A stretch of 64,000 nt of DNA from Phytoactinopolyspora mesophila. Its GTDB lineage: Bacteria; Actinomycetota; Actinomycetes; Jiangellales; Jiangellaceae. The stretch is from NCBI RefSeq assembly GCF_010122465.1, contig NZ_WLZY01000001.1, positions 62,001 to 126,000 on the forward strand. Reading direction: 5' to 3'. A model generated the notes under the pieces. The model was not told the origin of the DNA. It saw only the letters and a program-made list of their open reading frames with translations, and ran no database searches. Below, in pieces: positions 3,724 to 63,553 of this stretch (positions are counted from its first letter, which is position 1; each line of letters starts with the position of its first letter). Position numbers and translations under genes: made by a program.

Positions 3724-4190
3724 GCGCCAAGAAGAGCGCCGGTATCCTGCCGTTTCGCCGTACTGATGCGGAACTCGAGGTGCTGCTCGGTCACATGGGC
3801 GGCCCGTTCTGGGCCAAACGCGACGCCGGCGGCTGGTCGGTGATCAAAGGTGAGCACTCACCCGAAGAAGAACCCCTGGCGGCCGCCCGCCGTGAATTCG
3901 AGGAGGAACTCGGCCTGCCGGCGCCGGAAGCCGAATTTCTCTCGCTCGGCTACGTCCGGCAAGCCGGTGGAAAGATCGTGACCGTGTTCGCTGCCGAGAC
4001 CGATGTCGATCCGGACGGCATCTCCCCGGGCACGTTCGAGATGGAATGGCCGCGGGGGTCGGGGCAGATCAGGGAGTTTCCCGAGATCGACCGCGCCGCA
4101 TGGTTCGACCTGCGCACCGCGCACGAGAAGATCGTCAAAGGCCAGCGGGCTTTCCTCGATCGCCTGGCCGAGGTGGTCTCCCTTCGGTGA
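3720..4190 (+). CDS. NUDIX hydrolase
   Basis: This is a 156-residue single-domain NUDIX protein. The NUDIX box is complete: G-x5-E-x7-REFEEELGL spanning about residues 45-67 (starts GEHSPEEE), which binds the divalent metal and hydrolyses a nucleoside diphosphate linked to some moiety X. The N-terminal KKSAGILPFRR and later WFDLRTAHEKI strands match the small NUDIX type in which the substrate is often a diphosphoinositol or nucleotide by-product; the substrate cannot be told here. GTG overlaps the coaE stop (GTGA), so translation is probably coupled to coaE. Its stop codon lies inside the left arm of a long hairpin. Confidence 0.88.
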   Translation: MSAKKSAGILPFRRTDAELEVLLGHMGGPFWAKRDAGGWSVIKGEHSPEEEPLAAARREFEEELGLPAPEAEFLSLGYVRQAGGKIVTVFAAETDVDPDGISPGTFEMEWPRGSGQIREFPEIDRAAWFDLRTAHEKIVKGQRAFLDRLAEVVSLR

Positions 4191-4275
4191 TCGTGAGTAC
4201 GTTGTGGTTGTTCACGACGGGACAAATCGGGCGGATTTGCCCCTGGCGACAACCAGAACCTACTCACGATCACCG
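4185..4275. terminator. Long bidirectional hairpin between convergent genes
   Basis: The outer arms 4185-4211 and 4249-4275 pair at 25 of 27 positions (first 15 perfect). An inner pair 4219-4228/4234-4243 matches at 9 of 10. It lies exactly between the convergent NUDIX and split-barrel genes and includes the NUDIX stop codon. It has no U-tract, so it is a stem-only terminator candidate for both strands. Confidence 0.7.
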
Positions 4276-11664: not shown

Positions 11665-11712
11665 TTGCGTCCTGCAGAGTGAGCGCGGTAGGGCACACTC
11701 TGCAGGACGCAA
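11665..11712 (+). terminator. Hairpin terminator after terC
   Basis: Perfect 17-bp arms (11665-11681 and 11696-11712, beginning TTGCGTCCTGCAG) flank a 14-nt loop, 12 nt after the terC stop. Confidence 0.78.
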
Positions 11713-19577: not shown

Positions 19578-19584
19578 GACCGCC

Positions 19585-19650
19585 ATGGCACGTTGGATAC
19601 ACGTTGGGAACCGGTCTCTCGCGCCGCTCAACGTGTATTCAACGTGCCAT
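19585..19650. terminator. Long bidirectional hairpin between convergent mannosidase and lysR genes
   Basis: 22-bp arms (19585-19606 and 19629-19650) with one G-T mismatch flank a 22-nt loop. The left arm starts 8 nt after the mannosidase stop. Each arm contains ACGTTG/CAACGT twice, so slipped pairing is possible. Confidence 0.72.
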
Positions 19651-19686
19651 GCTGTGATCGCCGGAGCGTGGAACGGAGTTCGGGAG

Positions 19687-39592: not shown

Positions 39593-40339
39593 TCAGAAGG
39601 ACGGGGGGTCCTGTCGCGGCGGTTCGGGGGTGTTCTGCGGCTCGCGGCCGCCGCCTCCCGGACGGGGTGCGAGTTTCGTCCACCACTTCTTCGCCGTGTC
39701 GATTCCGCCGATGCCGAATGCGATGACGCCGGCCAGGAGGATCGACAGTGGCAGGAACTGGAGCAGTGTGTTCTCGATCTTGTCGGTGACCGAAGGGGCG
39801 AAGTTCAGTGTGTCGAGAGCGGCCAGAACACCGACGACGAGAACACCGATGCGGACCGCGGTAGCCACCCAGCCCATATTGCGGCTCTCGGCAAATGGCC
39901 GGACCACGCCGTATGCCCAATTGGCAATCGCGGCCGCGACGAACAGGACAAGAAGCGCGATGAGAACAAGTGGCAGGTATGCGATCAGGTCGCTGAGTAG
40001 CTGCGTGAGCTGTTCGATTCCGAGAACTTCGGCAGCGATTTGGATGAATATCAGGAAGATGAGGAAGTAGGCGACCTGGCCGATTAGCCGTATTCCGGAT
40101 GTTCCGGCTTGTTGCAGCATCGGCTCAAGGCCAGCCGCCTCGGTCAGGCGGCCTGCGCCGACCCGTTCGAGCACCGAAATCAGCAGGCGACGGATCAGCT
40201 TGGCGATCCAGTGCCCGACCAGGAGTAGGAGTAGGGCGACGATCAGGCGGGGGATGAATTCGCCGACATCCCGCCCGAGCTCAGCGAAAGAATCGACAAG
40301 CTCATCGACAAAATCGACATTAGATAAGTTGACAGTCAT
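39593..40339 (-). CDS. Mechanosensitive-channel-like TM-helix repeat membrane protein
   Basis: This 248-residue protein has about four to five helices with two copies of the conserved TM-helix repeat found in MscS-like proteins (FIPRLIVALLLLLVGHWIAKLIRRLL and LIGQVAYFLIFLIFIQIAAEVLGI). It lacks the cytoplasmic MscS beta domain, so it is a short member; gating is not certain. The Pro-rich C-terminus is disordered. Base composition is lower in GC than its neighbours, hinting at transfer. ATG overlaps the stop of a doubtful short frame upstream. Confidence 0.75.
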   Translation of the reverse strand: MTVNLSNVDFVDELVDSFAELGRDVGEFIPRLIVALLLLLVGHWIAKLIRRLLISVLERVGAGRLTEAAGLEPMLQQAGTSGIRLIGQVAYFLIFLIFIQIAAEVLGIEQLTQLLSDLIAYLPLVLIALLVLFVAAAIANWAYGVVRPFAESRNMGWVATAVRIGVLVVGVLAALDTLNFAPSVTDKIENTLLQFLPLSILLAGVIAFGIGGIDTAKKWWTKLAPRPGGGGREPQNTPEPPRQDPPSF

Positions 40340-40483: not shown

Positions 40484-40571
40484 CCCGGCCTGACAACCCC
40501 ACCCGCCCGGCCTGACAACCCCACCCGCCCGGCCTGACAACCCCACCCGCCCGGCCTGACAACCCCACCCA
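40484..40571. repeat. Four tandem 22-bp repeats (CCCGGCCTGACAACCCCACC + 2)
   Basis: The unit is repeated exactly at 40484, 40506, 40528 and 40550; the last copy differs only in its final base. There are no spacers, so it is not a CRISPR. The array abuts the left arm of the 100-bp palindrome upstream of uvrC. Confidence 0.95.
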
Positions 40572-40670
40572 CACCCCCGCACCCAAGGTGTTGATCATGG
40601 GCGGATGACACCTATCGGGCGCCCAATAGGTGTCATCCGCCCATGATCAACACCTTGGGTGCGGGGGTGT
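40571..40670. repeat. 100-bp near-perfect palindrome between divergent mscS-like gene and uvrC
   Basis: Arms of 45 bp (40571-40615 and 40626-40670) are perfectly complementary. The 10-base centre holds GGGCGCCC, itself palindromic, leaving one mismatched pair in the whole 100 bp. The genes on both sides point away, so a terminator role is unlikely. The right foot overlaps the -35-like element of uvrC. Confidence 0.97.
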
Positions 40671-40689
40671 CTGTGCTGACTCGTAGGCT
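40667..40689 (+). promoter_or_regulatory. Degenerate PafBC-type promoter of uvrC
   Basis: GTGTCTGTG (40667-40675), N8, TAGGCT (40684-40689) keeps the spacing and -10 of the RecA-NDp consensus with two changes in the upstream box. The -10 ends 7 nt before GTG 40697, so the mRNA would be leaderless. Confidence 0.6.
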
Positions 40690-40696
40690 GGAACAC

Positions 40697-42709
40697 GTGG
40701 CCGACCCTTCGACTTACCGCCCCGCGCCCGGCTCCATCCCGGTCGAGCCCGGCGTCTACCGGTTCAGTGACGGCGACGGCCGGGTGATCTACGTCGGCAA
40801 GGCCAAGAGCCTGCGCTCGCGCGTCTCGTCGTATTTCCAGGACCTCTCGGCGCTGCATCCGCGCACGCTGGCGATGGTGACCACCGCCGCGAAGGTCGAG
40901 TGGACCGTCGTGCGCACCGAAGTCGAAGCCCTGCAGCTCGAGTATTCGTGGATCAAGGAGTACGATCCGCGGTTCAACGTGCGCTACCGGGACGACAAGT
41001 CCTATCCGTACCTGGCCATCACACTTAACGAGGAATATCCCCGGGCGCTCGTCATGCGCGGGGCCAAGAAGCGAGGCGTCCGGTACTTCGGCCCGTACGC
41101 ACACGCTTGGGCCATCCGGGAGACTCTCGATCAGCTTCTGCGTGTCTTCCCGATCCGCAGCTGCTCGAAGGGTGTGTTCAACCGGTCGCGCCAGATCGGG
41201 CGGCCGTGTCTGCTCGGGTACATCGGCAAATGTTCGGCCCCGTGCGTGAGCCGGGTCAGCGCTGAGGAGCACCGGGAGATCGTCGAGGATCTCGTCGCGT
41301 TCTTGGAGGGCAAGACCGCCACGTACATCAAACGCCTCGAGCGGGAGATGAAAGCCGCCTCCGCCGAACTCGACTTCGAGCGAGCAGCCCGGTTACGTGA
41401 CGACATCGCCGCGCTCGAGCGCGCCATGGAGGCCAACGCGGTGGTGCTCGGTGACGGTACCGACGCCGACGTCGTGGCTCTCGCGGATGACCCTCTCGAG
41501 GTCGCGGTGCAGATCTTCTACGTACGCGGCGGCCGGGTGCGTGGGCAGCGAGGATGGGTGGCGGACAAGGCCGAGGACGTTCCTGCGGGCGAGCTGCTGG
41601 AGCGGTTCTTGCTGCAGCTTTATGGTGAGGCCGGTGGTGAAACCGTCCCGCGCGAGATCATCGTTCCGGAACTGCCGGAGGACGCGGATGAGGCCGATGC
41701 GCTGCGCGAGCTGCTGGCCGAGTTGCGTGGTGGCAAGGTGGATCTGCGAGTCCCGCAACGTGGCGACAAGCGGGCGCTGCTCGAGACAGTCTCGCGTAAC
41801 GCCGCTCAGACCCTGAAATTGCACAAGACGAAGCGCGCCAGCGATCTGACCACCCGGAGCCGGGCGCTTGAAGAGGTGCAGGAGGCGCTCGAACTGGACG
41901 AGCCGCCCCTGCGGATCGAGTGCTACGACATCTCGAATCTGGCCGGGACCGAGGTGGTCGGGTCCATGGTGGTGTTCGAGGACGGGTTGCCGCGCAAGAG
42001 CGAGTATCGCAAGTTCGGCGTTCGGGGAACCGAGGGGATCGACGACGTCGCATCCATCCGGGAGGTGTTGCGGCGCCGATTCCGCCGGCAGCACGTCGCG
42101 GCCGTCAACGATGCCGGCGATCCGGGCGTGTCCGTCGAGGACGGTGAAATATCGGAGCCCGACGCCCGGGAAAACCGGGGGCCGTCGAGGATCGACCCTG
42201 AGACCGGCCGGCCGCAGAGATTCGCGTACACCCCCGGTCTGGTCATCGTCGACGGTGGGCAGCCCCAGGTCAATGCCGCCCGCCAGGCCATGGACGAGTC
42301 GGGCGTTCCTGATATACCGGTCGTCGGCCTGGCCAAACGCCTGGAAGAAGTCTGGCTGCCGGACACCGAAGATCCCGTCATCATGCCGCGGACGAGCGAA
42401 GGGCTGTATCTGCTGCAGCGAGTGCGCGACGAGGCGCACCGCTTCGCCATCACGTATCACCGGCAGCGACGTTCGAAGTCGATGACCGATAGCCTGCTCG
42501 ACGGCATTCCCGGCCTTGGCCCGGCCCGGCGAAAGACGCTCCTGGCGCATTTCGGCTCGCTGAAGAAGCTCCGCGCCGCCGGTCCCGAGGAGATCAGTCA
42601 GGTGAAGGGCATCGGTCCTGCCTTGGCTGAGAACATCGCCCACGCACTCGCTCGAAGCCAGCCCGCACGTTCGGTCAACACCGCCACTGGTGAGATCAGC
42701 GAGGGCTGA
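40697..42709 (+). CDS. uvrC: Excinuclease ABC subunit C
   Basis: This 670-residue UvrC makes the two incisions around a lesion marked by UvrB. The GIY-YIG nuclease is at the N-terminus ([25 protein letters not shown]), a UVR motif near residue 220 ([21 protein letters not shown]), the RNase H-like nuclease in the middle ([24 protein letters not shown]), and a double HhH at the end ([22 protein letters not shown]). I place the start at GTG 40697 because a promoter -10 ends 7 nt before it; the ATG at 40643 lies inside the palindrome. An extra loop near 475-500 ([17 protein letters not shown]) interrupts the nuclease domain. Confidence 0.96.
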
Positions 42710-47348: not shown

Positions 47349-48238
47349 GCCGCTCCAGCGATGACGTTAACGAGATGCGTTCATTCCCGGTGATCGACGA
47401 CGCCACCGCTGAGGTCATCCTCAGCGGCGACACAGTGGCGCCCGAACACTCGTCGTTGGCGGAGGCCGCGCGGGCGATTCGCCGGACCGCGGACCAGCCG
47501 GTCCGGCCCAGTGCTGAGCTCGCCCGGCGGATGGCCTCGGGTCAGTTCCACGATGTCGCCGCTGCGCGGTATCCGGCCCGGCGCCGCGGATGGGTGCGCG
47601 ACATTGTGGCGGCAGCAGGTCCGCGAGCACGCTGGGCCGCCGGCGTGGCAATCGTTTTCACCGGGCTCTCAGGGGCGGTGGCAGCGGGTGCTTTCCCGGA
47701 TGCCGTGCAGGACCGGGTCCAAACCGTCGTCGAGGCCGTCACGCCGATCAAATTCACCGACGGGGAACACACGGGCGGCGAGATCGCGGAGAACGAGACG
47801 GGCGACATCACCGAAGCGCCGGGGAAGAACCCCGCGGGATCACCAGATGGTTCGGGACCAGAGGATCCGGGTGAGCATGGCCGGGAAAATCGGCCGGAGG
47901 ATCCGGGTGAGCATGGTCGGGAAAATCGGCCGGAGGATCCGGGTGAGCATGGTCGGGAAAATCGGCCGGAGGATCCGGGTGGGCATGGTCGGGAAAATCG
48001 GCCGGAGGATCCGGGTGAGCATGGTCGGGAGAACCGGCCGGAGGATCCGGGTGAGCATGGTCGGGAGAACCGGCCGGAGGATCCGGGTGAGCATGGCCGG
48101 GAAAATCGGCCGGAGGATCCGGGTGAGCATGGCCGGGAGAACCGGCCAGCTGGTTCGGAGGAGAACGGCCGGCAGAACCAGGGCGGTATCCCGGAGTCAC
48201 CACCACACAAGACCGACCGTCCTGACCGGGGGAGTTGA
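47345..48238 (+). CDS. Putative anti-sigma factor with one TM helix and eight 12-residue extracytoplasmic repeats
   Basis: This 297-residue protein has a cytoplasmic N-terminus (1-95; FPVIDDATAEVILSGD, RRTADQPVRPSAELARRM) of a size suited to gripping the sigma factor, a single helix at about 96-118 ([21 protein letters not shown]), then an acidic stretch and eight copies of PEDPGEHGRENR (residues 172-267; copy 4 has GGHG). The tail is hydrophilic, highly charged and probably disordered. Operon position and topology suggest an RsdA-like membrane anti-sigma factor; no zinc HxxxCxxC motif is present. The repeat tail could reach into the wall as a sensor. Confidence 0.72.
   Translation: MSRSSDDVNEMRSFPVIDDATAEVILSGDTVAPEHSSLAEAARAIRRTADQPVRPSAELARRMASGQFHDVAAARYPARRRGWVRDIVAAAGPRARWAAGVAIVFTGLSGAVAAGAFPDAVQDRVQTVVEAVTPIKFTDGEHTGGEIAENETGDITEAPGKNPAGSPDGSGPEDPGEHGRENRPEDPGEHGRENRPEDPGEHGRENRPEDPGGHGRENRPEDPGEHGRENRPEDPGEHGRENRPEDPGEHGRENRPEDPGEHGRENRPAGSEENGRQNQGGIPESPPHKTDRPDRGS
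47858..48145 (+). repeat. Eight in-frame 36-bp tandem repeats in the anti-sigma gene
   Basis: Copies start at 47858 and every 36 bases; each contains GGATCCGGGTGAGCATGG with a few synonymous or single changes (C/T at GGCCGG/GGTCGG, AAAAT/GAACC). Copies fall into at least two sequence classes, showing recent duplication. It is prone to slippage and copy-number change. Confidence 0.95.
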
Positions 48239-48358: not shown

Positions 48359-48473
48359 CCCCACCCTCGTCGGTGATCGACAGTGCGCTGTGGTCGTTGG
48401 GCCGCAGCCACACTCCACTGTCGATCACCAATGAGCGACCACAGCGCACTGTCGATCACCGACGAGGGTGGGG
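48359..48473. terminator. Very long hairpin (38-bp perfect arms) between convergent genes
   Basis: Arms 48359-48396 and 48436-48473 are perfectly complementary; the 39-nt loop contains a third CACTGTCGATCACC copy (48416-48429), so the left arm can pair with either. It lies between the anti-sigma gene and the response regulator gene, which end toward each other. Likely a bidirectional terminator or a palindromic repeat element. Confidence 0.8.
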
Positions 48474-48517
48474 GTGATGTGGGGTGGGGGTGATGTGGGG
48501 TGGGGGTGATGTGGGGT
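48466..48517. repeat. G-rich 16-bp tandem repeat at the right foot of the hairpin
   Basis: About three copies of TGATGTGGGGTGGGGG (48475, 48491, 48507 partial) directly follow the hairpin and abut the response regulator stop. G-tracts of 3 to 5 give quadruplex potential on the plus strand. Confidence 0.9.
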
Positions 48518-56522: not shown

Positions 56523-56632
56523 ACAACGAGAGAAGCCGGGAATGACCCTTCGCGCCTCGGGCGTGTGGCGGAGAAGCATGCCACACGCCCTCGTATAGCG
56601 CGCGCAGGATCATTCCCGGCTTCTCTCGTTGT
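56523..56632. terminator. Composite hairpin between convergent rbpA and sulP
   Basis: Outer 23-bp perfect arms (56523-56545, 56610-56632) enclose an 11-bp inner hairpin (56559-56569, 56580-56590). The whole lies between the rbpA stop and the SulP gene stop. Confidence 0.75.
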
Positions 56633-62694: not shown

Positions 62695-63506
62695 CACGTC
62701 GATCGACCCGCGCGATCACCTTCGACCTGGACGACACGCTGATACGCAACGCGTTTGGCAGCTGGGTGATACCGGAGATCGCAGAACACATCACCAACGG
62801 CGATCCTGAGGCGGACGTCGCCCGGTCACTTCAGCAGCGGCACCGGAAGGCGTTGGAACGCGGTGACGCACTGGCCGCCTACGACTGGCAGGCGCACACC
62901 GACGCGCTGGCCGAGGAGGCCGGGCTCGGCGCCGGAGCGGTCGACGTCGCCGCCGTCGTGCGCCGGCATGCCGTGCCGAGCAAGGTACGACTGGTGCACG
63001 AGAAGACCATCCCGGTGTTGCGAAGCCTGCGCGATGACGGATGGCGAGTGGTGATCCTGACCAACGGATTCCGGGTCTACCAGGAGCCAGTCTTGCGTTC
63101 CACCGGCCTGTGGGACGAGGTGGACCAGGTTCTGACCACCGACGACCTCGGCTGGGCGAAACCCGATCCGCGGGCGTTCGCTGCGGCATTCGGCGGCGCG
63201 ACGACGACCGTACATGTCGGTGACCGGATCGATCACGACATCCGGGGCGCCAGGGGGGCCGCGGTCACGAGTGTGCTGATGCGTCAAGACGCGCCGTTTG
63301 TCGGCCGCATGGCTGAGCTGGACCCCGATCAGCTCGCTGAGATGCGCGGATACCTGCTTGAGGCGGCGGCCGCCCAGCGGGCGGCCATACCGGCCGCCAC
63401 GGAGCCCGCCGACCTGATGCCCGACGCCGTCGTCGCCGACATCGTCGAGCTGCCGCCCGTCCTGGACGAGCTCGGAAAGGAGGCCACGACCGCACGTCAG
63501 CCATGA
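62691..63506 (+). CDS. HAD-superfamily hydrolase
   Basis: This 271-residue protein has all four HAD motifs: FDLDDTL (near 11), VVILTNGF (near 122), KPDPRAF and HVGDRIDHDI (near 180). Helical cap between motifs 1 and 2. Probably a phosphatase for a small phosphorylated compound. The C-terminal 55 residues are Ala-rich with no motif. GTG overlaps the permease stop; its own stop begins the 50-bp palindrome. Confidence 0.9.
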   Translation: MTRRSTRAITFDLDDTLIRNAFGSWVIPEIAEHITNGDPEADVARSLQQRHRKALERGDALAAYDWQAHTDALAEEAGLGAGAVDVAAVVRRHAVPSKVRLVHEKTIPVLRSLRDDGWRVVILTNGFRVYQEPVLRSTGLWDEVDQVLTTDDLGWAKPDPRAFAAAFGGATTTVHVGDRIDHDIRGARGAAVTSVLMRQDAPFVGRMAELDPDQLAEMRGYLLEAAAAQRAAIPAATEPADLMPDAVVADIVELPPVLDELGKEATTARQP

Positions 63507-63553
63507 TCATTGGCTTTTGACCACCGGATCCGGTGGTCAAAAGCCAATGATCA
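63504..63553. repeat. 50-bp perfect loop-free palindrome
   Basis: Two 25-bp arms (63504-63528, 63529-63553) meet at GGATCC with no unpaired base. It begins at the HAD stop codon and ends 24 nt before the next ATG. It may be a terminator or attenuator between the two genes. Confidence 0.97.

Follow-up and report, generated by a model that had tools for sequence, protein, structure and literature searches.

The window analysed here, a 64,000-nucleotide stretch of the Phytoactinopolyspora mesophila genome, carries a near-perfect palindrome in the gap between two divergently oriented genes. To its right lies uvrC (40697-42709, plus strand), which matches the NCBIfam UvrC model at 1069 bits, and to its left a mechanosensitive ion channel-like gene (39593-40339, minus strand) that scores 63 bits, under the cut-off for its family. 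The palindrome covers 100 bp at 40571-40670, and 49 of its 50 positions pair: the arms (40571-40620 and 40621-40670) form 45 perfect outer pairs, one C/A mismatch and 4 perfect inner pairs with a loop of 0 nucleotides, and complementarity across the palindrome plus flanks (40566-40675) is 95%. Folded as single-stranded DNA it reaches −64 kcal/mol, compared with a mean of −20.3 (sd 2.7) for 200 dinucleotide shuffles, none of which was as stable (z = −16), and it has the top strength among the palindromes in the 1.6 Mb of the P. mesophila genome examined. A sequence-only reading of the window had described a near-perfect 100-bp palindrome with 45-bp perfect arms and a single mismatch, lying between divergent genes, and both the geometry and the placement are borne out. 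Four C-rich tandem units of 22 bp each (40484-40570) adjoin the left arm.

The 110-bp region 40566-40675 was used to search the genome, which amounts to 6.5 Mb in 27 contigs and is 99.5% complete. This returned 78 matches on both strands, counted as 40 distinct places, and nearly all of them were confined to the central ~62 bp (query positions 25-86). These matches define a palindromic core of 62 bp at 40590-40651, a copy of a repeat family that we call F1, with the consensus GTTGATCATGGGCA..TG.C.CCTATTCG and its complement; within the core, a 58-bp unit at 40592-40649 begins and ends as TGATCAT...ATGATCA. The outer 20 bp on each side (40571-40590 and 40651-40670) behave differently, the sole matches in 1.6 Mb being the left arm and its partner. 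Being found nowhere else in this span, the outer arms are part of the uvrC locus and not of the repeat. The search for the arms that the earlier reading had proposed found the central part dispersed through the genome and the outer part, in the 1.6 Mb covered, only here.

F1 is one among at least 7 palindrome families that have different interiors and a common terminus, TGATC(A/G), at both ends. The others include F2 (TGATCATGAACACT, 49-50 bp), F3 (TGATCATTGGC, 50 bp), F4 (TGATCATTGTG, 52 bp), F6 (TGATCATGTTTGG, 82 bp), G1 (TGATCGTCAGTG or TGATCGACAGTG, 53-85 bp) and G2 (TGATCGTGAGC, 52-85 bp), and unit sizes across the superfamily range from 49 to 86 bp. The pattern TGATCAT...ATGATCA occurs at 152 places in the P. 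mesophila genome and its reversed control at 0, and when palindromes in 1.6 Mb were ranked by strength without reference to any motif, 57 of the top 85 had TGATC(A/G) termini. Besides the unit upstream of uvrC, the window holds three members of the superfamily: an 85-bp element of the G type with TGATCR termini (4188-4272; C1:66188-66272), a G1 element (TGATCGACAGTG...; 48374-48458; C1:110374-110458), and a perfect 50-bp F3 palindrome (63504-63553; C1:125504-125553) that the sister species Phytoactinopolyspora limicola has at the corresponding site. The first and last of these are fused to the stop codon of a gene, and a 16-bp G-rich tandem array (48466-48517) directly adjoins the G1 palindrome.

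Repeats of other kinds also occur in the window. A dispersed palindrome at 19584-19651 (CATGGCACGTTGGATACACGTTG, with a 22-nt loop) is present at six places in 1.6 Mb of P. mesophila and 0 in 400 kb of P. limicola, and P. limicola has two places with another palindrome, that at 11665-11712 (TTGCGTCCTGCAGAGTGAGC), which occurs at five in the same 1.6 Mb of P. mesophila. An inverted repeat with 33-bp arms and a 44-nt loop (56523-56632) is single-copy in 1.6 Mb, and an array of eight 36-bp tandem units with a 96% match (47861-48147) has a relative in P. limicola contig C34.

TGATCAT...ATGATCA was found in all 22 Jiangellaceae genomes sampled, at 1 to 215 copies each; P. limicola (G003) is placed in this family by the NCBI taxonomy. 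Across a phylum sample of 296 genomes the pattern was near chance in most, with other members having mostly 0-4 matches, and the matches listed outside Jiangellaceae were mostly non-palindromic. Two other families contained small sets with different stems (13 in G026 and 7 in G050).

Most elements lie at the 3' ends of genes, and the copy beside uvrC belongs to a minority in divergent gaps. With gene calls from a simple Markov-model finder, which are crude and make gene-based figures approximate, 91 elements were distributed over 35 convergent, 41 codirectional and 15 divergent gaps, set against a background of 842 gaps measuring 50 bp or more (151 convergent, 466 codirectional and 225 divergent). 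Among 107 genes running into an element within 300 bp, the TGA of the element is the stop codon in 24, and any other stop-codon offset accounts for at most 4 genes. Orthologues in P. limicola usually end within a few residues of the same place, and therefore the elements insert where genes naturally end, or close by. Whatever the gene orientation, the left flank is rich in C and the right flank in G. For 14 of the 91 elements a tandem array is found no more than 60 bp away, whereas intergenic points chosen at random give a mean of 3.2.

This placement raises the question of whether the elements are selected as bidirectional terminators or stabilisers of mRNA 3' ends, with the uvrC copy insulating two divergent genes. 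The two-fold enrichment between convergent genes and the position directly after stop codons are what such a role would lead one to expect, and at two sites (C1:7133 and C1:219115) P. limicola carries a palindrome of a different family in the same gap. The wider comparison of sites points the other way: for 19 P. mesophila elements both flanks could be mapped in P. limicola, and 13 of these sites have no such palindrome there, the remainder apart from those two holding the same family. These mapped sites indicate that element turnover between the two species is high. Genes of the congeners are ~80% identical and their intergenic DNA is too diverged for empty sites to be read base by base, so insertion junctions are unreadable. 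Selection at the RNA level through G-U wobble was rejected, since mismatches in transcript orientation are about equally G-T (38) and A-C (35) and leave no RNA-strand signature, which also speaks against a terminator role. Around uvrC, where the copy occupies a divergent gap, no GC-rich hairpin followed by a T tract was found when intrinsic terminators were sought by that criterion; terminators that operate without a T tract may be compatible with this result. On balance we regard selection as terminators or stabilisers as unlikely, though it deserves more weight than a regulatory site, a MITE or an assembly artefact, which are discussed below.

A second possibility is that the palindrome is a regulatory site for uvrC, acting as an operator or a cruciform switch. 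An alignment of eight Jiangellaceae shows a conserved block upstream of uvrC on the plus strand (40669-40689; GTC.GT ... TA.G.T), kept in seven relatives, which is likely the core promoter of the gene. The palindrome adjoins this block and overlaps its first 2 bp. That it touches a DNA-repair promoter, as had been claimed from the sequence, stands to this extent; it does not stand as a singular feature, because F1 occupies 40 places and more than 150 TGATCA palindromes are present in the genome, mostly at 3' ends. The same recurrence weighs against a dedicated regulatory site, as does the comparison of the locus in sister genomes that had been suggested alongside that claim. The mscS-uvrC gap of P. 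limicola is syntenic and has no palindrome, none is present upstream of uvrC in G001 or G002, and G004 has an F3-like copy at another distance upstream that is unrelated to the one in P. mesophila; no palindrome upstream of uvrC was thus found in 3 of 4 congeners, and this comparison shows no regulatory role there that the species have in common. An Rfam search gave no structured RNA above its gathering score (the best match, at 18.3 bits, fell short of the 97 required). A regulatory site at uvrC is accordingly very improbable; the palindrome probably has little or no dedicated function there, and its position is most likely incidental.

We favour instead the explanation that the palindrome is a copy of F1, a short non-autonomous REP-like repeat, and we consider this account, including the history proposed below, to be probably correct. 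The F1 copies at C2:74918 and C2:94571 are identical although their flanks differ, as expected if a unit of DNA had dispersed. The usual explanation for REP repeats is mobilisation by RAYTs (REP-associated tyrosine transposases). These enzymes are defined by the Y1 transposase domain (PF01797), which was found in none of the 22 Jiangellaceae genomes, compared with 5 of 14 control genomes, and mobilisation by a RAYT was rejected on this ground. No recurrent neighbour gene family that might act as a mobiliser was found beside the elements. An F6 hairpin pair 972 bp apart was considered as a set of transposon ends and rejected, as the translation of the enclosed gene resembles an inositol monophosphatase.

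Identical copies at different loci would also be expected of a MITE derived from a DDE transposon that moves by cut and paste and has TGATCA as its terminal repeats. Termini that start with TG and finish with CA are in keeping with such an origin, and so is the arrangement of one F6 palindrome (C1:929524-929615; L089:9524-9615), whose centre is another palindrome (TTCTCGTGCATCACCATG...), which suggests a nested structure; the inner part of this palindrome occurs again at C1:542973 with a different right side. Against a MITE, none of 122 elements has a target-site duplication of 5 bp or more (4-bp matches number 9, with 4.7 expected), and no autonomous element flanked by TGATC(A/G) termini was seen in 1.6 Mb of the 6.5-Mb genome. 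A MITE therefore seems improbable. A bolder reading, which we hold to be less likely than not, treats the TGATCA-tagged palindromes as mobile hairpins in a class of their own, copied into gene 3' ends throughout Jiangellaceae by a hairpin-recognising enzyme other than a RAYT, with the TGATC(A/G) foot serving as the recognition site and the stem free to evolve.

Agreement between arms was compared within and between copies. In F3, arm agreement is 0.939 within a copy and 0.856 between copies, a difference matched in 0 of 5000 permutations, and arm-templated correction is well supported for this family. The corresponding values for F1 are 0.849 and 0.823 (41 of 5000 permutations), a small effect, and for F1 in general the case for correction is weak. 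Three G1 elements (C1:699671-699755, C1:644963 and C1:827636; L077, L075 and L084) have a 31-bp arm segment directly repeated inside, with a total unit length that is nearly constant, as if produced by template switching. Together, the F3 arm agreement and these internal repeats fit correction of one arm by the other.

A comparable process may account for the outer arms at uvrC. The last bases of the right one are GGTGT, which lies at the same place in relatives without the palindrome; the alignment of eight Jiangellaceae thus shows this block to be native promoter-proximal sequence, and the matching left arm is best explained as a templated inverted copy. The history that we propose is one in which elements disperse as DNA hairpins, by way of some enzyme or of replication, and in which they are tolerated chiefly where they directly follow a gene. 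An F1 copy would have landed directly upstream of the uvrC core promoter, and intrastrand template switching (quasipalindrome correction) would then have extended the symmetry outwards on both sides, yielding the locus-specific 20-bp outer arms. A template-switch origin of these arms is our reading of a single locus. The alternative that the palindrome, or at least its outer arms, is an assembly artefact draws on the draft state of the assembly (27 contigs) and on the restriction of the outer arms to uvrC. The position of the palindrome in the interior of a 1.38-Mb contig argues against this, as do the shorter symmetric extensions on other copies. The core belongs in its own right to a family that recurs with differing sequence at 40 places, making an artefact unlikely for that part. 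The outer arms may be artefactual, yet of all the explanations weighed here an artefact is the one to which we give the least credence.

The persistence of so long a palindrome bears on SbcCD, whose cleavage activity the sequence-only reading had named as a reason to expect instability. In that form the premise does not apply here: a TIGR00619 search detected no canonical SbcD in P. mesophila (G000) or P. limicola (G003), whereas six other Jiangellaceae genomes have full matches (G001, G002, G004, G005, G009 and G011). In P. mesophila the best that the SbcD model achieves is 43 bits, against a cut-off of 78, and this match covers no more than a short segment of a protein of 346 residues (locus L201); the sampled genomes of a large sister genus (g3) likewise had no SbcD above the TIGR00619 cut-off. 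Elements that are at least 95% perfect occur in P. mesophila and P. limicola, both without canonical SbcD, and none was present in 400 kb of G002, which has SbcD. Two further Jiangellaceae genomes that lack SbcD had 0 elements at this level among the few examined. That loss of SbcCD permits perfect palindromes is a lead only.

The closest known match is with the GTAG/CGTC-tagged REPs (Di Nocera et al. 2013, PMC3733652). These are palindromes present in many copies, with a constant tag at the end and a stem that varies; they lie mostly between convergent and unidirectional genes near 3' ends, and their tag often supplies a stop codon, TAG. The Jiangellaceae elements resemble them in the fixed tag, the variable stem, the many palindromic copies per genome, the extragenic placement near 3' ends in convergent and unidirectional gaps (the divergent uvrC copy excepted), and the supply of a stop codon by the tag, here TGA. 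A further likeness is with the CGTC group, for which no transposase is known (PMC3733652). They differ in having TGATC(A/G) on both ends in place of an unpaired GTAG or CGTC on one, in units of 49-86 bp compared with 20-40 bp, and in their host, Actinobacteria being unmentioned in the main text of that study. The REP/RAYT system (PMC2817692) shares the dispersed short palindromes; the present elements have no GTAG foot and no cognate Y1_Tnp gene in the 22 genomes. With MITEs they share short, non-autonomous units, inverted-repeat ends and identical copies at different loci, and they depart from MITEs in the missing target-site duplications (122 elements) and in the lack of a visible parent transposon in the 1.6 Mb surveyed out of 6.5 Mb. 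Other actinobacterial intergenic repeats that overlap stop codons are the mycobacterial interspersed repetitive units (MIRU), which, unlike the elements described here, are not known to be palindromes. A literature search, with most subscription journals outside its reach, found no description of TGATCA-tagged elements, and its sequence matches concerned unrelated subjects.

We class the elements as REP-like repeats forming a new "TGATCA-tagged" group, distinct from GTAG/CGTC REPs in tag, symmetry, length and host. Throughout an entire actinobacterial family, genomes contain tagged palindromes in numbers that can reach the hundreds; like REPs these lie at gene ends and supply stop codons, but there is no Y1 transposase. 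The TGATC(A/G) tag is easily searched and the genomes of several congeners have been sequenced for comparison; how palindromes spread without a RAYT, and whether a terminal tag and a hairpin suffice for another enzyme, are directly testable in this family.
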